Virus record (IMG/VR): IMGVR_UViG_3300025426_000091
Span: 1 to 30,161 of that record
Reading direction: 5' to 3' (one strand)
From: a virus
DNA length: 30,161 nt
Shown: in pieces, positions 1,600 to 27,241 of the stretch
Position numbering within the stretch: the stretch's first letter is position 1
How the letters are laid out: the number at the start of each line of letters is the position of its first letter
Position numbers and translations under genes: made by a program
Notes under the pieces: generated by a model
Seen by the model: only the letters and a program-made list of their open reading frames with translations
The model's database searches: none
What the model was told of the DNA's origin: nothing

Positions 1600-1628
1600 A
1601 TATTATAACTTAAAGTGGCAAACGTCAA
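1600..1628 (-). promoter_or_regulatory. sigma70 promoter of the zincin gene
   Basis: -35 TTGACG (1623-1628), 17 bases, -10 TAATAT (1600-1605); an overlapping TATAAT gives a 15-base spacer. The stop codon of the carbamoyltransferase gene is inside the -35 hexamer. Confidence 0.65.
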
Positions 1629-3079
1629 TAGATAGGTACTCCGTTCAAATGGTGGAAACGAACAGCATCTTCCCAAGTGTTTACCAAAGGTTCGCCTTTT
1701 ACATTCAAACTGGTGTTCATTAGCACCGGACAGCCTGTTTTTTCACGCCAAAGTTCCAAAATAGCCCTGAAATTTGGGTTATCTTGCTTAGAAACTGTTT
1801 GTACACGACTTGTTCCATCTACGTGGCATACACCGGGCAGTTCTTTTAAACGCAAGCACGGGGCTGTAAACTGCATATAGGGGCTGGTTTTTACCGGCAT
1901 ATCAAAGTATTCATGGGCATATTCTTCCAAAATTGCCGGAGCAAATGGGCGAAATTCTTCCCTACGTTTGAGTTTGTTCATACGCAACTTGGCCATAGGT
2001 CCACGAGGATCGCACAGCAAACTACGATTGCCCAATGCTCTGGGACCAAATTCTGCTCGTCCATTGGCTACTGCTACAACTTCACCAGCTAGTAAATCAT
2101 TAACTATACTTTCTATATCCAAGACTCGATCAATATTGGTTCCCAAATAAGGCGAATCCCAAGTTAAATGTTGTTGTGTCAATGCGGCCACGGCTCCAAT
2201 AGCACTACCTGCATCTCCGGGGTTAGGCATAATCCATACATTGTTAAAACCTGCTTCTCGTGCTATCAGACTATTGGCTACACAGTTTAAAGCACAACCG
2301 CCCATGAACACAAGATTATTACTAGGTAACTGTTCACGTATCCATTTAGTAGTAGATAGCAAATATTCTTCCATAACGGCTTGTACACTAGCAGCAATGT
2401 CAAACTTGTTAACATTGGCTTCGTTGAGCCACCAACGGCACCCACGATGCAGATTGTGTCTTAGCTTAAAATCTGGTCCATTAAACTCTTTAAAAAATTC
2501 TCGTTTAAGATGTTCTGCAATAAGGGGTTTACCAAAAGCAGCCATACCCATTAGGATATATTCTTCTTCGTTGGGTTTAAGTCCTAACCAATCGGTAAAA
2601 GCTGTGTAGAATAATCCTACACTATTTGGATACTGTATACTCCAAAATTTATGTAGCCCAGTTTTATCTGCATGCCAAATACTTACAGTATCCCACTCAC
2701 CTATAGCATCAACAACTAGAACACTAGCATCTTCAAATCCGCTAGTATAAAAACCTGCGGCTGCATGGCTTTCATGATGACTAACATAGTGTACAGGTAA
2801 TCCATTCAACCCAACTAATCGTAGTTCGTCTTTGGGATTTTCTAACCAGGGACGTTGACCGGCATAAAGCCTGCGTAGGGATTTTCTAAAAGGACGCTCA
2901 AACCAAACAACTTCTGTCGGATTACCATACTGGCGCATTTCTTCCACCATCACCCTATTCAATGACGGATCATTCTTTGTGCGTGTATAACGTTCCGAGT
3001 GCGCGGCCCAAATTATCTTATCACCATCGATCAATGCCATACTGGCATCGTGATTCTGACCGGTAATACCTAAAATCAT
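1625..3079 (-). CDS. NodU/CmcH-type carbamoyltransferase
   Basis: Transfers a carbamoyl group from carbamoyl phosphate (via an adenylate) to a hydroxyl of a sugar, antibiotic or, in phages, possibly a nucleotide. Visible landmarks are the N-terminal GITGQNHDAS strand, the metal-binding HHESHAAAGF at residues 101-110, VVDAIGEWD, the GGCALNC loop, GRAEFGPRALGNRS, and the C-terminal carbamoyltransferase-domain segments FRPFAPAI and MNTSLNVKGEP. At 484 residues it is somewhat shorter than the 550-600 residues usual for the family, but both domains are present. It is preceded after one base by a 36-residue gene, so the two are co-translated. The substrate cannot be read from the sequence. Confidence 0.9.
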   Translation of the reverse strand: MILGITGQNHDASMALIDGDKIIWAAHSERYTRTKNDPSLNRVMVEEMRQYGNPTEVVWFERPFRKSLRRLYAGQRPWLENPKDELRLVGLNGLPVHYVSHHESHAAAGFYTSGFEDASVLVVDAIGEWDTVSIWHADKTGLHKFWSIQYPNSVGLFYTAFTDWLGLKPNEEEYILMGMAAFGKPLIAEHLKREFFKEFNGPDFKLRHNLHRGCRWWLNEANVNKFDIAASVQAVMEEYLLSTTKWIREQLPSNNLVFMGGCALNCVANSLIAREAGFNNVWIMPNPGDAGSAIGAVAALTQQHLTWDSPYLGTNIDRVLDIESIVNDLLAGEVVAVANGRAEFGPRALGNRSLLCDPRGPMAKLRMNKLKRREEFRPFAPAILEEYAHEYFDMPVKTSPYMQFTAPCLRLKELPGVCHVDGTSRVQTVSKQDNPNFRAILELWREKTGCPVLMNTSLNVKGEPLVNTWEDAVRFHHLNGVPIY

Positions 3080-5472: not shown

Positions 5473-6336
5473 TTAGATTCTTCGCATACATGTCGTTCTT
5501 GCCATTGCTTGCCAGTTTGAAGGAAAGCTCTTACGCAGGTCTGCCAACTTCAAGACCATACGCAGGCTCAACTCACGCAACTTGTCCTTGTTGGCTTCGA
5601 TGAACTCAACCAAATCGTGTTTGACAATTTCAACATTGTCAAAGTCATAACGGTCCAACATACCATCAGTGATGATTTGTTTGATACGCAGGATCTTCTC
5701 ACGAGTGGTATCCATTTGAAGGTCAATGTAGTGGCAACGTGATTCCAGTGCATCCAAGTGGTCACGCAACTTTTTACTGCGAACGTGTTCAAACTTGATG
5801 TTAGTAATGAAGATAGCCGCACCTTTGAACTCAAAACGATCCGGGATGCCTTCGCTACGCAAAATACGGCTGTCAGTATTCCAGCTGATAAAGCGGCGTG
5901 AGCTAGAGTCCAAAGCGCCTTTCAAAATGTTAAGGCTAAGGTCTTCCATCAAAATGCTGTCGCAGTCATCAAACACAACAACATTGCCTGGAGCACTGAA
6001 CTCAAACAACTTGGCATATAAGCCAATCGCTGACATAGCACCTTTGACCACTTCAAACTTGGGTTTCTTTTCTGCCAAGGTGTTAAACAAGTCTGCTTTT
6101 TGCAGAACATTCTCAACACCGTATGATTTACCAACACCTGGAGGGCCACTGACAATCATAGCACGGACATTGCCGTCTTTAACTGCCTTGGTCATGTCGT
6201 CCAGAATTTGGAAACGCTCACGGAGACGATCCATAATCTGTTCATCTGTTTCTTGTGCCACTTCACGTTCACGAGCCTTGATAGCGTCTGTATCAAACTC
6301 AAGAATGTTACCAGTTGCCTTTGCTGCCTTTGCCAT
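5473..6336 (-). CDS. AAA family ATPase
   Basis: 287-residue AAA+ protein: Walker A GPPGVGKSY at about residues 60-68, Walker B VVVFDDCDS, sensor-1-like FITN and an arginine-rich segment around ESRCHYID. Start is MAKAAKATGN at 6336, behind TAGGAG; a longer in-frame version lacks a ribosome site. Phage AAA proteins of this size act as remodelling or loader ATPases; the partner is unknown. Heads an operon with the membrane and Cys-cluster proteins below it. Confidence 0.85.
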   Translation of the reverse strand: MAKAAKATGNILEFDTDAIKAREREVAQETDEQIMDRLRERFQILDDMTKAVKDGNVRAMIVSGPPGVGKSYGVENVLQKADLFNTLAEKKPKFEVVKGAMSAIGLYAKLFEFSAPGNVVVFDDCDSILMEDLSLNILKGALDSSSRRFISWNTDSRILRSEGIPDRFEFKGAAIFITNIKFEHVRSKKLRDHLDALESRCHYIDLQMDTTREKILRIKQIITDGMLDRYDFDNVEIVKHDLVEFIEANKDKLRELSLRMVLKLADLRKSFPSNWQAMARTTCMRRI

Positions 6337-6369
6337 TTTTACTCCTATAAAGTTATTTAACAAGTGTGT

Positions 6370-6398
6370 ATTATAGCACTATTGTAAGTGCCTGTCAA
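6370..6398 (-). promoter_or_regulatory. consensus sigma70 promoter of the AAA ATPase operon
   Basis: -35 TTGACA (6393-6398), 17 bases, -10 TATAAT (6370-6375), extended TGC before the -10. The TGA of the upstream gene is inside the -35 hexamer. Confidence 0.85.
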
Positions 6399-6778
6399 TC
6401 AATTGCACGTCGAAAAATCAATTCTTGTTGCTCAAATGCCTGTACTTCCCAAGGGAGATCCAAATATTTGGTGCGTTTGGAAACTTTTTTGCCATTCCAA
6501 ACACGGCCTTTGAGTTTGCCCGAAGCCATTTGTTTGACATGGACCATTTCGTGTGCCAAAGTTAAACCCATTTGGATAATGTCCGCAGGGTTAATAACAA
6601 CCAAATAAGTGTCCAAACCATCCATAGGCATAGTAAGTCCGTTGCTACCATCCAACTTGTCAACCTTGACCACAAGATACTTGCGGCTACGGGTCAATTT
6701 GAGTTGCTGGATCATACTGGGAAGGATTGCTTCCAAGTACTTTTTGCGTTTTGGACTTGCTTGAACTACGAACTCCAT
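6395..6778 (-). CDS. zincin-like protein (HExxH), 127 aa
   Basis: HEMVH motif at about residues 76-80 within LTLAHEMVHVKQ, and a downstream PWEVQAFEQQE helix that would supply the third zinc ligand. A minimal metallopeptidase-like fold common in marine phages; target unknown. Second HExxH protein of this window, only distantly similar to the one at 853-1569. AAGGAG ribosome site and own promoter fix the start. Confidence 0.75.
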   Translation of the reverse strand: MEFVVQASPKRKKYLEAILPSMIQQLKLTRSRKYLVVKVDKLDGSNGLTMPMDGLDTYLVVINPADIIQMGLTLAHEMVHVKQMASGKLKGRVWNGKKVSKRTKYLDLPWEVQAFEQQELIFRRAID

Positions 6779-8619: not shown

Positions 8620-8923
8620 ATTTTTAGATTTATTAAAAACTAAAATGCCTGCTGGCAGTATCTTTTTACATGCCAGCGAAGTAGACCTTTCTCAAAAAAA
8701 TGTTGGCATGGTATTTTTTGATAAAGATTCCTCAGTCAGTATTAATTTTTATAGAGCGGCATGGAACATTCTTGTACCTAATGGAATCTTATGTGTAAGA
8801 ACCAATAAGTGGGCAGTATCTGCCATTAAAGAAATACGGGATATAGCAATAGAAGCTGATATTGAAATTATATTGCCGCCTTGCCCTGATATATTTTATA
8901 TAGTTAATCCCTATGACATTTAA
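8600..8923 (+). CDS. truncated methyltransferase-like protein (107 aa)
   Basis: Aligns by eye with the C-terminal half of the next gene product: VGMVFFDKDSS / CVYIDLWSEDS, then RAAWNILVPNGILC / SSAWDLLMPGGIIC, then DIFYIVNPYD / EFFYMVKPDE. It lacks the SAM-binding motif I, so it is probably not an enzyme alone and may form a heterodimer with its neighbour or be a decaying duplicate. Overlaps both flanking genes. Confidence 0.65.
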   Translation: MTYEEFEFLDLLKTKMPAGSIFLHASEVDLSQKNVGMVFFDKDSSVSINFYRAAWNILVPNGILCVRTNKWAVSAIKEIRDIAIEADIEIILPPCPDIFYIVNPYDI

Positions 8924-9491
8924 TAAACTAATACCAGGATGCTTGTCACCTAGTGATATACCGTTATTACAAAAAATTTGTAATATGTCTCCTCCGGAAT
9001 CTAATGCTATTGAAGTTGGGCCTTATGCAGGAAGGACTACACAAGTATTAAAAAATATATTTCAAACTGTTTATGCCATTGATCCTTGGGAAGAAAATGT
9101 ACCCAAGGGATTCGTTCAATACGGAATACCTATCGATCCTAAAAATATATATACAGTATTCGATAAACATATATCATTTTATAATAATGTGAAATCAATA
9201 ACTGGATATTTTCCCAAAGACTATCCGGAAGAGTTTAAAAATAACATAGGGTGTGTTTATATCGATCTTTGGTCAGAAGATAGCCAGTATCAAATATTTT
9301 CTTCTGCTTGGGATTTATTAATGCCTGGAGGAATTATTTGTGGTAAAACATTTCTTAAATGGACTGATTATGTTTTAATATCCGCAAGGCAACTGGCCTA
9401 TTATAGGGACACAACAATTTTTATAAGTCCTGGTAACGAATTCTTTTATATGGTCAAACCCGATGAGCAAAAAATACTTTCAACAGATTAA
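8913..9491 (+). CDS. class I SAM-dependent methyltransferase
   Basis: 192 residues with motif I AIEVGPYAGRTT (residues 32-43), acidic motif YAIDPWE, and strand/loop YIDLW ... WDLLMPGGIICG. This matches the Methyltransf_24 type used for sugar and small-molecule methylation. It starts 11 bases inside the preceding gene and its end overlaps the oxygenase gene by 29 bases, so the operon is tightly coupled. Confidence 0.75.
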   Translation: MTFNKLIPGCLSPSDIPLLQKICNMSPPESNAIEVGPYAGRTTQVLKNIFQTVYAIDPWEENVPKGFVQYGIPIDPKNIYTVFDKHISFYNNVKSITGYFPKDYPEEFKNNIGCVYIDLWSEDSQYQIFSSAWDLLMPGGIICGKTFLKWTDYVLISARQLAYYRDTTIFISPGNEFFYMVKPDEQKILSTD

Positions 9492-9984
9492 TTTTACCTT
9501 ACCCGATTTTTCGTTGGAGCAACTTAAAGGGAAAGAAATAGACAGTCAAACAGACGGTACTGTGGGATTCTTTTATTATAGTATTGCCGACTCCGAAGTA
9601 TTAGAATATATAAAAAAACATTCACCTATTCCAAATCCCTTTGTGGCATATTCAGAAATCATAGGTACCATTCTTCCACATATCGATGCCGGAGGTACCT
9701 GTGTAATAAATCATTATCTTGAAACTAATGCAGCCGATACTATCTTTTACAACTCAAAGGATAATTCCAATCCCATTGTTCTTTCAAACGGTGCTAAAAT
9801 ATTTCAAGAATCAGATTGTCAGGAAGTAGCAAGATTCCATGCCGAACCCAAAAGTACCTGGATACTAAACATAGGTAAAATACATAATGTAACGCAACCT
9901 GCAACAGGAGTCCGTAGAACTATTTCTATAGGTTATCCTGGGGTGAAATATTCACAGTTGCTTAAATTAATCTCCGGGGATTAA
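9463..9984 (+). CDS. 2-oxoglutarate/Fe(II) oxygenase-like protein
   Basis: 173 residues: PHIDAGG gives the His-x-Asp, GKIHNVTQP the distal His, and RRTISIGY the 2-oxoglutarate Arg. The layout matches phage 2OG oxygenases that share neighbourhoods with SGNH and methyltransferase genes. Last gene of the plus-strand operon; the C-terminal 18 bases overlap the convergent gene, with a small perfect inverted repeat (TTAATC/GATTAA) at the junction. Confidence 0.7.
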   Translation: MSKKYFQQINFTLPDFSLEQLKGKEIDSQTDGTVGFFYYSIADSEVLEYIKKHSPIPNPFVAYSEIIGTILPHIDAGGTCVINHYLETNAADTIFYNSKDNSNPIVLSNGAKIFQESDCQEVARFHAEPKSTWILNIGKIHNVTQPATGVRRTISIGYPGVKYSQLLKLISGD

Positions 9985-10599
9985 ATCGTCCCATTCTTCT
10001 TGAGTGAGTATTTGTGGGTTCCATTCAGCAAATGTGCCTGGCTTGATATCAGCATAGACAAAGTTCTGCCAGCACTTTTGTACCATATGTGGACAGGTTT
10101 GTAGATATCCTCCCGGTACTGTCCAATAGTTATTACTGGCAGCATTCATAGTTTGATTCCAGACATCCCACCATCTCTTGGTAGATTTTTTGTCTCTGTT
10201 CTGCATGGTAATAAAATAAGCATCATAGTTATTAACTTCAATCAAAGGAAAGATTAAATGATGGTGTAATAGTTTATAACCATTAACTAACTGCCTTACA
10301 CTTTTACGCCTAAAATTTTGAAATACAAAAGCACGGTTTAACATTCTGCCAATGTTTTTTGGCCAACGACTATCATTAAAAACACCTCCCATGATCATGG
10401 GTTCGTCAGTGGCTGTTTCATATACAACACAGTAACCTGTATGATCTTCTATTACTAAATTTTCTTTGGTATAGTTTTTTATAAGCCAGTTATCTTCTTC
10501 TTGAAGACAAATTTCTCGTACCCGTTCAAACTCGTCACAGGTTTCATAGAAGATTTTATGATAACCGTAATCTAAATCGACCAATCCTCGTTCTAACAT
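9967..10599 (-). CDS. hypothetical protein, weak GNAT-like features
   Basis: 210 residues. The part YCVVYETATDEPMIMGGVF followed by NRAFVFQNFR looks like the central beta-hairpin and following strand of GNAT acetyltransferases, but no clear acetyl-CoA loop is seen. Tryptophan- and tyrosine-rich C-terminal half. Single gene, divergent from the desaturase gene. Confidence 0.5.
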   Translation of the reverse strand: MLERGLVDLDYGYHKIFYETCDEFERVREICLQEEDNWLIKNYTKENLVIEDHTGYCVVYETATDEPMIMGGVFNDSRWPKNIGRMLNRAFVFQNFRRKSVRQLVNGYKLLHHHLIFPLIEVNNYDAYFITMQNRDKKSTKRWWDVWNQTMNAASNNYWTVPGGYLQTCPHMVQKCWQNFVYADIKPGTFAEWNPQILTQEEWDDLIPGD

Positions 10600-10667
10600 T
10601 TTATTTTTCTTCCTTGCGATAGTGTTGTTAAATATGTTACACTGTATTAATATAATAACACAGCTCT

Positions 10668-11438
10668 ATGAAACTTTCAAATTTTAATTTCAAAATCCGT
10701 TCTCTCCAAATAGCCAACCATATTGCAGCGGTAACAGGCATTGTTTGGCTGTCCTTGGGATACATTGATATTAGTTATCTCTGGATAGGCCTTGTATTTT
10801 ATATTTGGTTTGCATTATTTGGTACTGTGATAGGACTACATCGTTATTTTAGTCATAGAAGTTTTAAAACTAATAAGACTTGGCATTATCTATTAGGAGT
10901 AACTGGCACATTGGCCACTGTTGGTAGTATCATTGGTTTTGCTGGACTACATCGATATCACCATGCCAATACCGATACTGATCTAGATCCACATGATCCT
11001 AGACGTATAGGTTGGTTCAATGCATGGATCTATAACTGGAAACCTAGTCACTTTACTAAAAACTATATTCGTCCGGAACTAAAAGATCCTATGATTGTAT
11101 TTCTGCATAAACATTATTTTAAAGTTATCTTGGCCTATGTGGTATTCTTGGCTTTAATCAACCCTTGGTTAGTTGTTTGGTGTTATTGTATACCTGCTTG
11201 CGGTAGTTATATGGGACTTAGTGCTGTTACTGTGATAGGACATTTACACGGGTATAAAACGCATGACATTGGCGATGAATCGAGAAATAGTTGGATCTGT
11301 GCATTGTTGAGTGTAGGTGAAGGTTGGCATAATAACCATCATGCAAATAGCAGTAGTCACAGGACTGGAGAACAATGGTGGGAGTTAGATCCTGCTGCTT
11401 GGTTGATTGAAAACATTATACGAACAAACAATGCCTAA
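10668..11438 (+). CDS. fatty acid (acyl-CoA type) desaturase
   Basis: Integral membrane di-iron desaturase of 256 residues that introduces a double bond into acyl chains. The three histidine boxes are complete: HRYFSH (58-63), HRYHH (95-99) and HNNHH (221-225), between hydrophobic helices at roughly 18-53, 73-92 and 145-185. It is compact compared with the 300 or more residues common in bacterial acyl-CoA delta-9 desaturases. A TAATAT/TATAAT-type -10 lies in the 70-base divergent gap. Its end overlaps the radical SAM gene, implying joint action on membrane lipids. Confidence 0.9.
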   Translation: MKLSNFNFKIRSLQIANHIAAVTGIVWLSLGYIDISYLWIGLVFYIWFALFGTVIGLHRYFSHRSFKTNKTWHYLLGVTGTLATVGSIIGFAGLHRYHHANTDTDLDPHDPRRIGWFNAWIYNWKPSHFTKNYIRPELKDPMIVFLHKHYFKVILAYVVFLALINPWLVVWCYCIPACGSYMGLSAVTVIGHLHGYKTHDIGDESRNSWICALLSVGEGWHNNHHANSSSHRTGEQWWELDPAAWLIENIIRTNNA

Positions 11439-12600
11439 TGTAACAACTAAGTTTAATCAGTTTTCTAAATCAAATTGTAATAAGGCCTTAAAAAATATTA
11501 AGGGCGAGTTAGTATGTAATACTGTTAGTCTGTGCCATCATTGCCACCAGCATATTCCTGCATACAACTATCATATTAATAATCAGTATTGGATGAGTAA
11601 ATCCTGTGCTCTCCACGGAACATCTAATCATATGATTGATAGAGACTATAGTTTTATTAGTAAGCTCAAATATGCTAACAATGATTTATTCCCTATGGTG
11701 CTTACAGAAGTAACTGATCGGTGTAATATAGATTGCCCACATTGTTATCATATTCCTGATAATAAAACTGCTGATGTTGGAACCGAACAACTAATATGCC
11801 GTATTAAAGAATGGCGTTCTATTTTTCCAGAGTTGAGTGTATGCCTAGCTGGTGCTGAACCAACGCTACACAAAGATCTAGTAGGCCTCATAGGACGAAT
11901 GTCAAAAGAAGTTAGTCCAAGAATGATTTTGATATTAACCAATGGTATTCGTTTTTCTGATAAAGTCCTAATGTCAGATTGCCAAGCTGCGGGCCTTCAC
12001 ATAGTTACTATGGGACTGAACCATCCTAGTTATATTAACAATCCGACTATAAGAAAAAAACAAATAACAGCTATTGAAAATGGTTTAAGTTTGGGTCTAT
12101 TTGAGAATGGTTATGTGGGATATACAATGTCCAGTATTTCTGAACTTGAAGACATTTTAGAGGAAACAACAACCGCTGGATGGAATCCGGGTATGTTTAG
12201 AATACGCTATGGTAGTGACATTGGGCGATATCCTGATCAGGAAAGAATGTATGTTAGTGATATTGTTGCATTAACTAAAAAGTGGTGTGAAAAAAATAAT
12301 AAATCTTTTGAGATAATCGATGATTGGGATAATAACATTTACCATGTTATGGTAAGCATTGACAATCAAAAATACAGACTCATTCAATGGTGTGATGAAA
12401 CAGACATTGACATGGAAGAACTTCGTTCAGGACCATTCTGTGATTTTGTACCAGATGGTATTACAAACTTCTTACATCAAGTAATACGTAGAGATGTTTT
12501 GAAAAATCAAAAAATAGCATTACCTGATGCTCCGCCTATTAGGTATCAACCTATGGGTGTGAACGATCCTAGTCCGTTAGATTTTAAAAAACTATACTAA
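11431..12600 (+). CDS. radical SAM enzyme with N-terminal Cys cluster, Tes/MJ0619-like layout
   Basis: 389 residues from ATG 11431 (an ATG at 11407 adds 8). The 4Fe-4S/SAM motif is CNIDCPHC at residues 98-105, with LAGAEPT as the GGE-like motif and TNGIRFSD following. The N-terminus has CHHC near residue 35 and a KSCALHG segment, the same order as the zinc/Fe-S N-terminal region of tetraether lipid synthase (Tes) and relatives. Those enzymes act on lipid alkyl chains; that, plus the overlapping desaturase gene, suggests lipid remodelling, but the resemblance is judged by eye only. Confidence 0.75.
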   Translation: MPNVTTKFNQFSKSNCNKALKNIKGELVCNTVSLCHHCHQHIPAYNYHINNQYWMSKSCALHGTSNHMIDRDYSFISKLKYANNDLFPMVLTEVTDRCNIDCPHCYHIPDNKTADVGTEQLICRIKEWRSIFPELSVCLAGAEPTLHKDLVGLIGRMSKEVSPRMILILTNGIRFSDKVLMSDCQAAGLHIVTMGLNHPSYINNPTIRKKQITAIENGLSLGLFENGYVGYTMSSISELEDILEETTTAGWNPGMFRIRYGSDIGRYPDQERMYVSDIVALTKKWCEKNNKSFEIIDDWDNNIYHVMVSIDNQKYRLIQWCDETDIDMEELRSGPFCDFVPDGITNFLHQVIRRDVLKNQKIALPDAPPIRYQPMGVNDPSPLDFKKLY

Positions 12601-13200
12601 TCCTACTATATTACAGCCTAGAATAATCCTAGGCTTTTTACTTGTATTTTTAGTAGTTTTATGCTTTAACCAGCCTGGAAACATAACTAAATTTCCTTCT
12701 TTTACATCAATTTCTTCCTGAAACCAACTGCCGTAGTTATCTATGTTGCTATGGTCAATGGGCTGGTGTTTTAGCAAAGTTTCCAATGGGTTTTCAAAAA
12801 CAATATTTCCAGAATCACTTGATTCTTTTGACAAATTAAAACTTGCAGTTATTGTTATTGGACTATGATTATGAAGGTCAATAAATGCACCTTGGTCATA
12901 TCGATTGGCCCACATTTCAAAAACAACAGGATTCTTGTTTAAATCATAACCTAACTCTTTCCAATAAAGTTCAATATGCGGTTGTATCCAATCAATAAAA
13001 GGTTTCAGTTCGGGCCAATGCTGTATATCCCTTACTGCATTATATGAGCACAAACCTCCAGATCGCATAGAGTCTTGGTTGTTTAGTTTTGTTTTTTCAA
13101 ACACACTTTCTAGTTTGGGCAATAAGGATTTTTTTAATGCTTTAAGATTTTCTGTGTATTCGGTTTTATAAATCTTAACAGGGAAAAATGAATTAATCAT
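12592..13200 (-). CDS. 2-oxoglutarate/Fe(II) oxygenase-like protein
   Basis: 202 residues: ANRYDQGAFIDLHNHSP carries the metal-binding His segment, then NIVFENP, GNLVMFPGWLKHKT (distal His) and PRIILGCNI (2OG-binding Arg). This is the pattern of the phage putative 2OG-Fe(II) oxygenase family found in cyanophages. Start is ATGA-coupled to the SGNH gene; it is the last gene of the four-gene operon, and its C-terminal codons overlap the terminator of the convergent radical SAM gene. Confidence 0.8.
   Translation of the reverse strand: MINSFFPVKIYKTEYTENLKALKKSLLPKLESVFEKTKLNNQDSMRSGGLCSYNAVRDIQHWPELKPFIDWIQPHIELYWKELGYDLNKNPVVFEMWANRYDQGAFIDLHNHSPITITASFNLSKESSDSGNIVFENPLETLLKHQPIDHSNIDNYGSWFQEEIDVKEGNLVMFPGWLKHKTTKNTSKKPRIILGCNIVGLV
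12615..12639 (+). terminator. Rho-independent terminator of the desaturase/radical SAM operon
   Basis: Stem AGCCTAG/CTAGGCT with a 7-base loop and a run of T, 15 bases after the radical SAM stop. It lies inside the coding sequence of the convergent oxygenase. Confidence 0.7.
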
Positions 13201-13946: not shown

Positions 13947-15025
13947 GTAATGTTATACCAGGATCTAGCTTCGGCAAGTGCTTGATACCCTAGTTCTTCC
14001 AATGTATATGTTTTTCCAATATTATTTTTAGAAGACCAGTTATTATAAGTATCTAAACAGTCTTTAAAGTTTTTTACAATAAGAGCCTTTTCTGCAAGTG
14101 TTTGGAGTTTAATGGGAATACCAAATAACAAATTTCTATCTTCGTGCAGTTGTTTAGTAAGTACTTCTAGTTTTTTATAGGCAGTTAAATGAGTATTTAA
14201 AAATCGTGTATCTACTACAGAAAGTTCTGAGTTCATTTTAACATTGTTAGATTCATCAGTTAACAGTTTGATATCGACATTATGTTTTAATTTAGAAAAT
14301 CCTGATTTATCGCTAGACAAATAGTGACACTTGTTCCAATCGTTCCAACTAATATTGTATAATTCTTTCCAAGATTTGCGTTGTGTATCTGGAGGAAATA
14401 TATCTAAGTTATTTACATAACCTTCTAAGTCTTTAAGATGTGTTTCATAACTAAAAATAGAGTTAACACCAAAATGGTCGTCAACCCATTCGAGGTATTT
14501 GACATACTTATCAAGATAGTTTTCGAACACTATTTGATCAATAGTTATTTTGTTCTTGTGTAAATGATCAGTTAACATCATTTTATGTTCTGCTTCAAAC
14601 AGATTTAGATGTTTGGTAAAGTTAACAATGCACCAACTCAATGCATGTTCAAACAAATTTTCTCGCCTTGCACTGATAATAAAAAAGTTATTGTTTATAT
14701 ACTTGTAAAGACTTAACTGATCTGGTAAAGAATCTTTTCTGTTGTTGATATGATACTGGGCCAACCGACTGACACTATACTGATCTACGCTAGATAATAA
14801 GGCGACTACTTCTTTTAAACTTTGATGATATCCCCATTCTTGCCAATGTGGTTTGCCTATCATGTCCTGATTATATTTGGTTGAGTGATATTTTTCAAGA
14901 CCGTTGGTTAACTCATGTAGATTAACAACTGGTTTGCCATAATCATAGTTTTGCATTGTCACCGATAGGTATTTTTGCAACAAGGTAGATCCTACCCTAT
15001 CTGGAGTTAATACTATAACGTTCAT
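13943..15025 (-). CDS. sulfotransferase-like protein
   Basis: 360 residues. The N-terminal strand-loop TPDRVGSTLLQKY is the 5'-phosphosulfate (PAPS) binding loop of sulfotransferases, and ISARRENLFEHALSW resembles the 3'-phosphate-binding strand with Arg and Ser-type residues. Family: sulfo-group transfer to carbohydrate or other hydroxyls. Overlaps the genes on both sides by ATGA. The acceptor is unknown. Confidence 0.75.
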   Translation of the reverse strand: MNVIVLTPDRVGSTLLQKYLSVTMQNYDYGKPVVNLHELTNGLEKYHSTKYNQDMIGKPHWQEWGYHQSLKEVVALLSSVDQYSVSRLAQYHINNRKDSLPDQLSLYKYINNNFFIISARRENLFEHALSWCIVNFTKHLNLFEAEHKMMLTDHLHKNKITIDQIVFENYLDKYVKYLEWVDDHFGVNSIFSYETHLKDLEGYVNNLDIFPPDTQRKSWKELYNISWNDWNKCHYLSSDKSGFSKLKHNVDIKLLTDESNNVKMNSELSVVDTRFLNTHLTAYKKLEVLTKQLHEDRNLLFGIPIKLQTLAEKALIVKNFKDCLDTYNNWSSKNNIGKTYTLEELGYQALAEARSWYNIT

Positions 15026-16105: not shown

Positions 16106-16828
16106 TTATCTTTCTATCCTACAAAATGCTATTGGCTTGTTCTTTGCTAGTAGTATTGTTTCATATACATTACCATTCTCAGTAGTTGATCCAAACACTT
16201 GATCAGTTTCAGATATATTCTTAAAGAAGTATAAGTTAATCTTTTTAATAGGTCGTTGTATTTTATTAAAAGTACGATACTCGCTTAGTAAAACTAAATT
16301 CAAATAGTTAGCACAATACAGTATTTTTACACCATTGAAATATGCTTCGGGACTAAACGGCAAAATATTAAACTCAGATTGATCAATGCCTTTTAGTTTC
16401 TTTTTTATTTGTTTATGTTCTTCTAAGAAAGTTCTATCTACCGAATCAATATTTTTATGAACTTGATTAGGTTCATCTCTGATTAACAATCCACTGACTA
16501 GATCTTTCTTAACAAATATGCTATCTAGTCGAACTGTAGCACTATTGTCTTCAACACTTGCAGTATGTATGGATCTGTAGATCTGACTGTTAAACTTGAA
16601 TATTTTACTTTTTAGATTTAGGTAATCATTTTCTTTAAAATGATCCTGTCCTTTATTAAAGTCTATTTCTATACCAAAGAAACTAGCGTACAATCTTTCT
16701 GTTTCATTATAAAACGAAACTGCTTCACTTAACAAAGCCCAATGATTACCGCCTAGTTCTTTTAAAAGCCAAACAGGATCGAGTCCGTTATAACTCAGGT
16801 GAGGCATTCCTATTTTTATTTTTGACAT
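16106..16828 (-). CDS. LnmK/Pnap_2097-like hotdog-fold protein
   Basis: 240 residues starting MSKIKIGMPHLSYNGLD at 16828 (an in-frame upstream ATG would run through tRNA sequence and is unlikely). The segment GMPHLSYNGLDPVWLLKELG...HWALLSEA recalls the N-terminal hotdog domain of LnmK and the Pnap_2097 family of biosynthetic-cluster proteins that act on acyl carrier-bound substrates. Recognition is from memory of the motif, so moderate. It sits alone among tRNA genes. A link to the acyl-chain enzymes elsewhere in the window is possible but unproven. Confidence 0.5.
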   Translation of the reverse strand: MSKIKIGMPHLSYNGLDPVWLLKELGGNHWALLSEAVSFYNETERLYASFFGIEIDFNKGQDHFKENDYLNLKSKIFKFNSQIYRSIHTASVEDNSATVRLDSIFVKKDLVSGLLIRDEPNQVHKNIDSVDRTFLEEHKQIKKKLKGIDQSEFNILPFSPEAYFNGVKILYCANYLNLVLLSEYRTFNKIQRPIKKINLYFFKNISETDQVFGSTTENGNVYETILLAKNKPIAFCRIER

Positions 16829-16843
16829 GGCTATTTTTATAAA

Positions 16844-16881
16844 TGGTCGGAGTACAAGGATTCGAACCTTATACTCTAAAT
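16844..16881 (-). pseudogene. 3' half of a tRNA (remnant)
   Basis: T arm TAAGG TTCGAAT CCTTG, acceptor strand TACTCCG, A73 and CCA are intact, but there is no 5' half: the piece directly follows the CCA of tRNA-Pro(UGG). The missing partner would read CGGAGTA; a 5' remnant of a Pro tRNA lies 800 bases upstream at 17647-17688. Confidence 0.7.
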
Positions 16882-16956
16882 TGGTCTCGGTGGTAGAGCT
16901 CGAATCTACCACTCATGGTCCCAAACCACGTATGTCGCCATCAACACCTCACCGAG
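16882..16956 (-). tRNA. tRNA-Pro(UGG)
   Basis: Acceptor CTCGGTG/CACCGAG, anticodon stem CGTGG/CCATG with loop TTTGGGA, T loop TTCGAGC, A73, encoded CCA. The first eight bases double as the last codons and TGA stop of the HNH gene upstream. Confidence 0.92.
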
Positions 16957-17602
16957 ATATAATTATGTATTCTGGAAAGCTATCACTCTTAAACCTCATT
17001 CTTGCTGTTTCGTGCCCAATTCCTATAGAATCGGCGGCCTGCGAAATCGAGTTGTAAGATACATTGTCTACCAAAACTTCATAACCGTGTAAGTATTTTT
17101 TAGATACTTTTTCTTTAACTATTTTTTTAGGACGAGTAGCAGGTACCTTCCATTTATTTCTACCAGCTATCCATCCATTTGGTATTTGTCCATTAAGTAC
17201 TTTTTTATTTTCTTTAGTCTCTAAATTACAAATCCACATTGTTCCTGCTTGGGAATTATTTTCACCAACTTGTAAAGCACTCATTGCCTTACTCATATCC
17301 TCCCGGTAAACTGAAAATATCCTCGAACAAGCTCTATACTTTTCTTGTTTGTTGGATATTGAATTACACATCATGTTAAATGCTTTTAGCATCTTGTAAT
17401 ATGAATTCTTATTACCTTTATACATCTTAACTAATATCCAATGACATATAAAATGTTCCCTGGCGGTAAGCCTTACTAAATTATCTTTAGAGTCAGATCC
17501 ACCAAGACTTATTGGAACAATATGATGTTTTTCAGTATATCCATCATAAGGATTGTTTAATCTATTCTCAATAATTTGATTGTATAGTTTTGCGTAGTTC
17601 AT
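16949..17602 (-). CDS. HNH homing endonuclease with NUMOD-type C-terminus
   Basis: 217 residues. The N-terminal EKHHIVPISLGG ... DNLVRLTAREHFICHW is the HNH/EH domain (His pair, Asn and distal His) of free-standing phage endonucleases. The C-terminal half contains a NUMOD1-like helix-turn-helix (VSYNSISQAADSIGI) for DNA binding. The gene sits between a 5' piece of a tRNA-Pro and an intact tRNA-Pro, and its TGA lies in the latter. Lower GC than the tRNAs, as is usual for such genes. Confidence 0.88.
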   Translation of the reverse strand: MNYAKLYNQIIENRLNNPYDGYTEKHHIVPISLGGSDSKDNLVRLTAREHFICHWILVKMYKGNKNSYYKMLKAFNMMCNSISNKQEKYRACSRIFSVYREDMSKAMSALQVGENNSQAGTMWICNLETKENKKVLNGQIPNGWIAGRNKWKVPATRPKKIVKEKVSKKYLHGYEVLVDNVSYNSISQAADSIGIGHETARMRFKSDSFPEYIIISR

Positions 17603-17777: not shown

Positions 17778-18602
17778 TTACTTATATACTTTACTGTAAT
17801 CAAAAGCAATACGATGCAATACACGGTTTTCCATATCGTCGAAATCCCATCGTTTGTGTATACTTAACCATTGCTCTGATATTACAACATCTCCATCATC
17901 CCAATCATGATGATAACAATATTTAGGCTTCAATACGTGCTTCTTGAGCGTTTCCATTATTGAATTAAACTCGTCATCTTCATAACCTTCAAAACCAAAA
18001 ATCTGTAGGAATGGAAAGAACAATCCTGTCTTTCCAGCCTTGTTGGTTTGAACTAGGTTAATGGGATAATCTCTATTCACATGTTCGACAAAAAACTTAC
18101 TGTCAGAATACATACCTGATTTATATCCGCAGTATACTCTAATGTCTTTAATCTTATCTTTCAGTTTATTGCTGAGTCCTTCATAACTCGCAATGTTATT
18201 AATCCAACTTGTACGTGAACCTTTGGTACCTTGGTCGCCATACAACCAAATCAAAGGCTTTCTGTCAGGATTACTTGTTTGATTAGCATGCCAATCCAAT
18301 GCCACACGATGTCCAAATAGTCCTTCTTCACCGTACTTGTCTTTTTGACCAGTAACTCGTAAAATACCTTCGTTCAATCTAATGTGTTTAAATCTTTCAT
18401 AGTCGGCAGGATAATATTGATACTCACCGATTACACTACAGAAGTCAAGTTCTTGTTGTGGTGTCATAGACTGTTTTTTAAACACAACAACCATGTTTGA
18501 AACAATTAACTTAGCAACTTCTTTTATTTCTTTCTTTTTTAAACTATTAATATCTTCGTTTACAAAGACTGTCCAACCGTTTTTATCATATGTAATGTTC
18601 AT
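17778..18602 (-). CDS. TauD/TfdA-like dioxygenase
   Basis: 274 residues with the TauD-family layout: VVVFKKQSMTPQQELDF, then LDWHANQTSNPDRKPLIWLYG at the first metal motif, WDDGDVVISEQWLSIHKRW with the distal His, and a C-terminal RVLHRIAF Arg. The first motif is His-Ala-Asn where a His-x-Asp/Glu is expected, so the metal carboxylate ligand appears to be missing. This might mark altered chemistry or an inactive protein. Eight bases from tRNA-Val and directly after the deaminase gene. Confidence 0.8.
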   Translation of the reverse strand: MNITYDKNGWTVFVNEDINSLKKKEIKEVAKLIVSNMVVVFKKQSMTPQQELDFCSVIGEYQYYPADYERFKHIRLNEGILRVTGQKDKYGEEGLFGHRVALDWHANQTSNPDRKPLIWLYGDQGTKGSRTSWINNIASYEGLSNKLKDKIKDIRVYCGYKSGMYSDSKFFVEHVNRDYPINLVQTNKAGKTGLFFPFLQIFGFEGYEDDEFNSIMETLKKHVLKPKYCYHHDWDDGDVVISEQWLSIHKRWDFDDMENRVLHRIAFDYSKVYK

Positions 18603-23761: not shown

Positions 23762-23838
23762 TGGTAGGTCGGGTGGGATTCTAACCCACGATCAACGGCT
23801 TATGAGGCCGCTGCTTTAGGACACTAAGCTACCAACCC
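23762..23838 (-). tRNA. tRNA with CAU anticodon (Met or Ile2)
   Basis: Acceptor GGGTTGG/CCGACCT, anticodon stem GCGGC/GCCGT with loop CTCATAA, T loop TTAGAAT (A in place of C56), A73, CCA. No initiator features. Ten bases of its 5' end carry the end of the nuclease gene. Confidence 0.9.
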
Positions 23839-24497
23839 ACTCTTATCTGGTCCGGCGTATAATTTTTACACTCTTCTAAACCTTTTATAATTATAAGATT
23901 TTTTATTTGTTCTGTCAAGCATTTTATTTTTGCCTGTTGTGCTTTAATTGCATATGGGTTTTTGGGATCTAAATATATATCGAAATCTATCAAATAAAAG
24001 TCTGGAAAATAATTATGTGATATTCCTTTTTCATCTATCCATTTTATTGGATTAGGGCGAATCCAATTTACATTAATTTCATCTAACCGGGTAGCCAATG
24101 CCTCTTCCCAAGACGAATCTAAATTAATAATAGTTCCGTCTTTCTTTATATATTGCCTAATAGATCTAACTAGTCTTCTATGCGGACTTGCTAATGCTTT
24201 TTCTTTAAGATGTTGTTTAGTTTTTTCAGTATGATTTAATTTACCATTTATTTTTTTAGTCTCAACTGCTTTTTGATGTGATCCTGTATATTTTCCATTT
24301 GCATGTGCTTGTTTAATCTTTTCACTTCTTTTTGCAATAGCATCGGCAGTTTGCATCTGTGAGCAATTATTTGCTTTTTTATATTCTGATCTTTTAGGAT
24401 TACTATGGCACCATCTAGAATGATTGGCTATTTCAGATCGCGACAATGTTAAAAAATTTAACGAACAGTATTTACAACAACTAAGTTTTTTATACAT
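23829..24497 (-). CDS. PD-(D/E)XK-type homing endonuclease with Cys motif
   Basis: 222 residues starting MYKKLSCCKYCS behind AAGG. An N-terminal CxxCxxC...H-type finger is followed by a basic linker, then DSSWEEALATRLDEINVNW, YFPDFYLIDFDIYLDPKN: the Pro-Asp and Asp-x-Lys of a Vsr/I-Ssp6803I-like PD-(D/E)XK core. Free-standing endonuclease between tRNA-Arg and a CAU tRNA; the TAG stop is inside that tRNA. Confidence 0.8.
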   Translation of the reverse strand: MYKKLSCCKYCSLNFLTLSRSEIANHSRWCHSNPKRSEYKKANNCSQMQTADAIAKRSEKIKQAHANGKYTGSHQKAVETKKINGKLNHTEKTKQHLKEKALASPHRRLVRSIRQYIKKDGTIINLDSSWEEALATRLDEINVNWIRPNPIKWIDEKGISHNYFPDFYLIDFDIYLDPKNPYAIKAQQAKIKCLTEQIKNLIIIKGLEECKNYTPDQIRVGW

Positions 24498-24512
24498 ATA
24501 GTACCTTATAAT

Positions 24513-24589
24513 TGGTACCACCGGCGGGATTCAAACCCACATCGTACGCTTTAGAAGAACGTTGCCTTATTCAATTAGACCACGGTGGT
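24513..24589 (-). tRNA. tRNA-Arg(UCU)
   Basis: Acceptor ACCACCG/CGGTGGT, anticodon stem ACGTT/AGCGT with loop CTTCTAA, T loop TTTGAAT, A73, CCA. Confidence 0.93.
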
Positions 24590-26392: not shown

Positions 26393-26467
26393 TGGCAGGG
26401 AATGAAGGTACCGCCCCTTCTCACCCAGTTTCAAAGACTGGTATCTGCTCTTATCGATTTATTCCCT
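26393..26467 (-). tRNA. tRNA-Gln(UUG), non-canonical D and T loops
   Basis: Acceptor AGGGAAT/ATTCCCT, perfect anticodon stem CCAGT/ACTGG with loop CTTTGAA (UUG), T stem GAAGG/CCTTC, G73 as in Gln, CCA. But the T loop is GGCGGTA and the D region has no GG. Nine bases of its 5' end carry the end of the upstream nuclease gene. Confidence 0.78.
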
Positions 26468-27109
26468 AATTAAATTTATCAAATCATTTTTCATAATGAT
26501 TTTAATTTCTAGTGATGGATTTTGTTCTATAACCCATTTCATTTTGAGTTTATCATTATTCCACCAATGACCTTTTATTTCTATAATTTCGTCTGTGTCT
26601 ATTAAATGGAAGTCTGGTTTATACCAATGATTTTTTCCAAGAGGATCTGTATATTTTATAGATTCTGGCTTTTTCCATTTGATAGAATTTTTCTCTAAAT
26701 ATTCGTAATATTGAATTTCCATCGAAGACATAAGTCTAACACTATCTCCGTTACTATCAATAACTGATAATCTTTTATAGTTTTTAAAATGATGTCCTCT
26801 TGCTTCTAAACTTATATCACTTTTAATATAACATTCCCAACACATATTATGTTTATTTTTGTTTATTAATGATTTACAACAAATACATAAATTAGCAGGA
26901 GTGTGGTTCCTATAAGTAGATAATCGTTTTTCGATCATCTCCTTTTTCTTATCATCAGATAATCTTTGATACGCTCTGCTATTTGCTAAACTTCTTTTCT
27001 TGTTTGTTTCACTAGTGAATGTTCTACTATTTGAACATTTTCTTGAACAAAACGCTTTATTCCATTTACCTGGATCAAATTCTATGTTACATTTGGGGCA
27101 TATTTTCAT
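26459..27109 (-). CDS. PD-(D/E)XK-type homing endonuclease with zinc fingers
   Basis: 216 residues starting MKICPKCNIEF at 27109, behind AAAGG; the longer frame to 27193 has no ribosome site. An N-terminal CPKC...CSRKC finger, a second CICC...CWEC finger, then SSMEIQYYEYLEKNSIKW, YKPDFHLIDTDEIIEIKG: the PD...ExK catalytic core of Vsr-like nucleases. Located just before tRNA-Gln with the TAA inside that tRNA. Confidence 0.8.
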   Translation of the reverse strand: MKICPKCNIEFDPGKWNKAFCSRKCSNSRTFTSETNKKRSLANSRAYQRLSDDKKKEMIEKRLSTYRNHTPANLCICCKSLINKNKHNMCWECYIKSDISLEARGHHFKNYKRLSVIDSNGDSVRLMSSMEIQYYEYLEKNSIKWKKPESIKYTDPLGKNHWYKPDFHLIDTDEIIEIKGHWWNNDKLKMKWVIEQNPSLEIKIIMKNDLINLIRE

Positions 27110-27129
27110 AATCGAACCTTTACTAACAT

Positions 27130-27167
27130 ATTTAGTATACTCGTTAATCTTTGGTACGATTCCCCAA
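27130..27167 (-). pseudogene. possible 5' half of a tRNA-Gln (remnant)
   Basis: TTGGGGAATCG TACCAAAG resembles the start of bacterial tRNA-Gln (TGGGGTATCGCCAAG). It follows a hairpin spacer arm as normal tRNAs do here, and no 3' half follows; the nuclease gene begins instead. Confidence 0.4.
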
Positions 27168-27168
27168 C

Positions 27169-27241
27169 ATACATAAACACACTTGGTCGTCACATTGTTA
27201 GGGACTAGTCTTACAGAATACCCGCAAATGTGTTTGTGTAT
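27169..27241 (-). repeat. hairpin spacer, copy f (divergent)
   Basis: Arms ATACATAAACACACTT and AAATGTGTTTGTGTAT, about 14 pairs with a wobble and a mismatch, 41-base loop; same family as the inter-tRNA hairpins a-e. Confidence 0.55.

Follow-up and report, generated by a model that had tools for sequence, protein, structure and literature searches.

A phage desaturase gene with a recurrent, predicted GNAT-fold partner and a rare radical SAM neighbour

The usual view of phage desaturases is that they act alone, on membrane fluidity. The stretch of DNA analysed here, an IMG/VR virus record of 30,161 bases (hereafter the window), carries overlapping genes for a desaturase and a radical SAM (rSAM) protein, which a preliminary description had interpreted as a lipid-remodelling pair that could act together on the membrane of the host. 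This arrangement raises the question of which neighbour, if any, the desaturase works with.

An intact desaturase gene and its surroundings

The desaturase gene (DES; 10668–11438, + strand) encodes a Delta9/SCD-like membrane fatty-acid desaturase of 256 residues that passes the Pfam FA_desaturase model (PF00487; 2.7e-16, 60.5 bits against a cut-off of 29.7) and matches SCD1 and other acyl-CoA desaturases of solved structure, with E-values from 3e-18 (4ymk) to 5.5e-18. Three histidine boxes are present on the + strand, HRYFSH (residues 58–63; 10839–10856), HRYHH (residues 95–99; 10950–10964) and HNNHH (residues 221–225; 11328–11342), and their histidines, together with an extra conserved pair in HLH (H192 and H194; 11241–11249), are invariant in a family alignment of 12 phage desaturases. 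The gene is therefore intact, as first described, and encodes a desaturase whose predicted activity is the desaturation of acyl chains. DES shares its three boxes, a near full-length match and the third-box sequence GEGWHNNHH with Delta9 enzymes of the stearoyl-CoA desaturase/DesC type (PF00487). Its best match among plasmid-borne cellular desaturases shows only about 34–35% identity, and in our desaturase tree the phage enzymes are separate from the seven reference desaturases.

Membrane desaturases on phages are already known. A study of Arctic brine phages describes viral desaturases (vFADs) with three histidine motifs and Delta9-type assignments, and proposes that they raise host membrane fluidity; the passages on these enzymes that were consulted mention no partnership with a GNAT protein (PMC7300359). 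Pelagibacter phage Mosig likewise carries a membrane desaturase, with 29% identity over 67% of the query and an adjoining Asp_Arg_Hydrox gene.

The rSAM open reading frame was listed at 11407–12600 (+ strand) with a TTG start at 11407; we favour the ATG at 11431, since relatives begin at comparable places, which makes the TTG less likely and gives a protein of 389 residues (11431–12600). The overlap of the two genes is real, but with this start it spans 8 nt (ATGCCTAA; 11431–11438, + strand), and the larger value of 32 nt applies only to the TTG. A terminator-like hairpin with a T tail (12615–12635, + strand) starts 15 bases past the rSAM stop codon, between the convergent rSAM and 2OG-oxygenase genes. 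Because of the overlap and this hairpin, DES and rSAM are probably carried on one transcript. On the other side of DES, the ORF map shows a divergent intergenic region of 68 bp (10600–10667) that separates it from a gene on the − strand, o9967. This region likely holds the promoters of both genes, and it contains 16 promoter-like matches against a mean of 12.2 in shuffled sequence, which is no clear excess.

A radical SAM family on the Tes/TrsS branch

The rSAM protein contains two domains above cut-off, Radical_SAM (PF04055; 2.3e-10) and Zn_ribbon_HMPTM (PF23545; 2.7e-9). The KxCxxHG layout reported at its N terminus is borne out as K57-S-C59-A-L-H62-G63 (numbered from the ATG at 11431). We aligned 43 phage members of the family, non-redundant at 90% identity, and found that a rubredoxin-like metal site, C35-X2-C38-X20-C59-X2-H62 (11533–11616, + strand), and the radical SAM cluster motif, C98-X3-C102-X2-C105 (11722–11745, + strand), are kept in 43/43; these seven residues are the sole invariant candidate metal ligands of the family. 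No cysteine in the C-terminal part is fully conserved (C286 in 29/43, C321 in 31/42 and C337 in 36/42). The window protein has all three, and its subgroup may carry a C-terminal cluster, which would not be a family feature. The alignment also reveals a family-specific C-terminal block, IQWCDETDIDMEELRSGPxCDFVPDGxTNFLHQxIRRD (12382–12495, + strand), with no Pfam or NCBIfam match and one marginal PHROG match (residues 303–342, E 0.009).

How close the protein comes to tetraether lipid synthase (Tes), the enzyme to which it had been likened, was judged by profile, fold and motif. Tes was the best match in a profile search of the PDB (2e-21, followed by MoaA at 8e-7). It was also the top fold match when the predicted structure was compared by Foldseek (6.8e-13, with MoaA at 4.5e-7), as the preliminary description had proposed to check; we take this ranking as supporting evidence only, because the confidence of the model is low (pLDDT 65.8). 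Among NCBIfam models, TrsS (NF045646) came first (3.2e-22; 78.7 bits against a cut-off of 490, with the best stretch covering residues 89–198 and not the full length) and Tes second (1.3e-16; 60.3 bits for the equivalog, cut-off 450), both far under their cut-offs. Both models were also matched by 12/12 close family members, with TrsS reaching 4.7e-28 at best. Scores below these two drop to HxsC and MoaA, and the protein thus does not group with peptide- or nucleotide-modifying families, the outcome that had been set against a lipid role.

The motifs delimit this relationship further. Tes (GDGT-MAS; MJ0619, PDB 7TOL) has a rubredoxin-like site, C9X2C12X20C33X2H36, and three [4Fe-4S] clusters, and its coupling reaction passes through a cluster-bound intermediate (PMC9433317). 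The rSAM family shares the CX2CX20CX2H site with the same spacing and the CX3CX2C core, but the window protein is about 100 residues shorter (389 residues against 493 in the solved Tes chain), the N-terminal auxiliary [4Fe-4S] motif of Tes (C73X3C77X2C80) is absent from the family, with NGCPYDCGLC aligning to a cysteine-free region, and the C-terminal auxiliary cluster lacks a fully conserved ligand set. The reading as a relative of Tes therefore stands for the closest solved structure and for the N-terminal Cys3His site, and fails on the score, which is below cut-off, and on the missing N-terminal [4Fe-4S] motif. From these comparisons of sequence, we regard the protein as a distant, stripped-down cousin of Tes that resembles it and yet lies outside it. 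Since the family lacks the N-terminal auxiliary motif and has no fully conserved counterpart of the C-terminal one, coupling of the Tes type is unlikely; lipid chemistry of some kind is nonetheless possible, as GrsA/B, which are thought to carry a single cluster, act on lipids (PMC11186832). TrsS, in turn, is named a radical SAM (seleno)protein; the window rSAM frame has no in-frame TGA and hence no selenocysteine. We also rejected a recoded or selenocysteine-containing rSAM in two matches (G037 and G043), whose stops lie beyond the point where the reading frame closes.

Family members are common among IMG/VR phages, with 16 close relatives in viral contigs and 146 when searched by the core region. 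A tblastn search of 50,697 phage records was negative, plasmids yielded two matches, both weak and partial (26–33%), and two peptide-seeded scans of bacterial and archaeal genomes, which are sensitive only to near relatives carrying the peptides, returned no cellular relative. The commoner neighbours of family members are unknown proteins of 229 and 267 residues, B12-rSAM proteins, other rSAMs, Aminotran_3, Trp_halogenase and a GNAT-like gene of 184 aa whose family differs from that of o9967. Asp_Arg_Hydrox, sulfotransferase, amidinotransferase-like and SGNH-type genes also occur in the islands of tailoring genes where the family is usually located (contigs L002–L175). They are possible biosynthetic islands, in which the tailoring genes suggest a mostly non-lipid theme. 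The family thus adds to the Tes/TrsS branch a group, widespread in phages, in which the rubredoxin-like site is retained and the auxiliary cluster motifs are absent or only partly conserved, and would be useful for asking what role the rubredoxin-like site plays.

Genomic partners of the desaturase

Adjacency of desaturase and rSAM genes is rare. In a set of 131 phage desaturases, non-redundant at 90%, an immediate neighbour is another desaturase in 67 cases, a member of the o9967 family in 36 and a member of the rSAM family in 2, namely in the window and in a contig (L107) with a distant desaturase in divergent orientation. Viewed from the rSAM side, 7/43 non-redundant family members have a desaturase no more than five genes away, and only 3/50 contigs retrieved by desaturase contain the rSAM. 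The closest relatives (L018, L019 and L021) have the desaturase and lack the rSAM; in the closest of all (L018; desaturase 67%, o9967 69%), an Asp_Arg_Hydrox (Asp/Asn-hydroxylase-type) gene overlaps the desaturase in the place of the rSAM. Around desaturase and GNAT, L016, L018 and L019 show a modular arrangement with the genes in shuffled order. On the 2/131 adjacency we reject a conserved desaturase–rSAM pair.

The gene on the other side of the divergent region, o9967 (9967–10599, − strand), encodes a protein of 210 residues that is predicted to be GNAT-fold and acyltransferase-like. Its AlphaFold2 model is confident (pLDDT 89.8), and the top Foldseek matches in the PDB are all GNATs (probability about 1.0, E 1e-4, TM 0.4–0.5), at identities of about 10%. 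It has no Pfam match, and at E<=1 the families matched by 16 members include no GNAT. The protein thus has the predicted fold in common with GNAT N-acyltransferases, while the acetyl-CoA loop of those enzymes, Q/R-x-x-G-x-G/A, is unrecognisable in the o9967 alignment.

Linkage was assessed in viral contigs searched with o9967 alone, a set free of ascertainment through the desaturase. A desaturase adjoins o9967 in 36/46 non-redundant loci, at position +1 in 28 and −1 in 9, with one locus having both, and no desaturase lies farther than four genes away (n = 46); after clustering at 70%, adjacency holds in 18/26. In the desaturase tree, the GNAT-adjacent genes fall into several distinct clades, and the association has therefore been kept or remade. 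The two genes are transcribed divergently in both the window and L018, L019 carries one divergent and one co-directional desaturase, and a search for desaturase–GNAT fusions found none. By the conservation of gene neighbourhoods, the lasting genomic partner of the desaturase is o9967 and not rSAM. Our search of a mainly open-access literature found no title or abstract describing a phage desaturase linked to an acyltransferase or acyl carrier protein (ACP). The phage desaturase thus belongs to a module that had drawn no comment in that literature, and the recurrent linkage across clades says that many phage desaturases may supply a further step that has gone unrecognised.

Three other contigs classed as viral carry desaturase genes in arrays of 5 to 11 (L023:1794–16744, L024:7983–16744 and L022:2397–6211). 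The first also contains a ketosynthase (8744–9904), an ACP (14516–14758) and an AcpS (6291–6623), and the second an AcpS and an ATP-grasp gene, with tail-fibre-like giant ORFs in its remainder. These arrays resemble a polyene/polyyne-type pathway in gene content. Fragments of these contigs gave no match to Terminase_6N, and their GNAT-like genes have no significant profile match to o9967. In the desaturase tree, the clade of the window DES (support 0.98) takes in array desaturases of L022 and L023.

Possible roles of the module and other genes of the window

We give an even chance to a reading of the locus as a phage acyl-chain module, made of desaturase and GNAT, to which a tailoring rSAM has been added in this one lineage. 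DES, as a membrane di-iron enzyme, would introduce a double bond in a fatty-acyl chain, and o9967 would use the product, most likely by transferring the unsaturated chain, for instance from an acyl-thioester to an amine. Acyl-thioester substrates are favoured, by association only, because the clade-mate contig L023 has ketosynthase, ACP and AcpS genes; a simple motif scan for an ACP in the window gave only one protein, which is not an ACP. The rSAM, presumably a recent arrival, would have joined in the lineage of the window directly behind the desaturase, where it is probably co-transcribed, and would use one [4Fe-4S] cluster to cleave SAM and then take a hydrogen from a substrate. That substrate may be an acyl chain; many whole contigs have both rSAM and o9967 (22/50 and 18/50), though the two genes are often tens of kilobases apart and the counts are uncorrected for shared phage ancestry. 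Counting against an acyl module are the remoteness of the GNAT fold matches, the failure of o9967 to match any Pfam GNAT family, the divergent orientation of o9967 and desaturase in the window, and the lack of fusions between them.

The pair originally proposed, in which acyl chains of the host membrane are unsaturated by the desaturase and then coupled or modified by a Tes-like rSAM, would account for the gene overlap and the likely co-transcription, and it draws on Tes being the best PDB match by both profile and fold, on the identical spacing of the rubredoxin-like site and on the 7/43 family members near a desaturase. Against this, adjacency is found in only 2/131 desaturases and the closest relatives do without the rSAM; the Tes N-terminal cluster motif is absent, the C-terminal cysteines are not fully conserved and the score stays at 60 bits where 450 are required; neighbours across the rSAM family are mostly non-lipid, and the C-terminal part is polar (GRAVY −0.62). 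The pair is thus not supported, and we consider it improbable. Only slightly short of an even chance, by our estimate, is that the rSAM is functionally unrelated to the desaturase and tailors peptides, sugars or nucleotides in a phage biosynthetic or surface-modification island, the adjacency being a product of shuffling. The halogenase, aminotransferase, B12-rSAM, other rSAM, Asp_Arg_Hydrox, sulfotransferase and SGNH-type neighbours of the family argue for it, as does the modular gene order among L016, L018 and L019, whereas the gene overlap and the terminator that follows the rSAM point to co-expression in the window phage, and the 22/50 whole-contig co-occurrence with the GNAT also counts against it. 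An unrelated rSAM is compatible with the desaturase–GNAT half of the acyl-chain module.

An ordinary auxiliary metabolic gene, raising the membrane fluidity of the host as suggested for cold-water phages and surrounded by incidental neighbours, has the published three-motif, Delta9-type phage desaturases (PMC7300359) and the Mosig gene in its favour; it leaves unexplained both the strong GNAT linkage and the desaturase arrays with ketosynthase, ACP and AcpS, and we hold it to be doubtful. Taking the acyl-chain module further, one may imagine a compact phage acyl-tailoring pathway that passes an unsaturated acyl group from thioester to amine by way of the GNAT, with rSAM decoration in some lineages, and yields an acylated metabolite or an acylated component of the phage or host surface. 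We think this extension unlikely as it stands; if it were true, its most elaborate form would be represented by the contigs that combine as many as 11 desaturases with ketosynthase, ACP and AcpS.

A third acyl-handling enzyme had been suspected in a hotdog-fold LnmK-like gene. The gene is real as a remote match to LnmK/Pnap_2097-like proteins (TIGR04099, 7.7e-25, 87.9 bits, cut-off 125; TIGR04098, 6.2e-20, 71.6 bits, cut-off 100), with no match in the PDB. Its listed GTG start at 16912 falls within a tRNA-Ser gene (16844–16937), and the start is likely the ATG at 16828, which fits the homologue on L256 and places the gene at 16106–16828 (− strand). The link to acyl chemistry was dropped: there are only two viral relatives, and neither has a desaturase or ACP neighbour.

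Further tailoring-type genes of the window encode a NodU-type carbamoyltransferase (1625–3079), a TauD-family dioxygenase (17778–18602) and a 2OG-Fe(II) oxygenase (phrog_81; 12592–13200). The window probably derives from a larger phage rich in tRNA genes: 28 of them lie on the − strand between 15935 and 30124, with endonuclease-like ORFs between them (23829–24521, 26459–27193 and an HNH type at 16949–17602).
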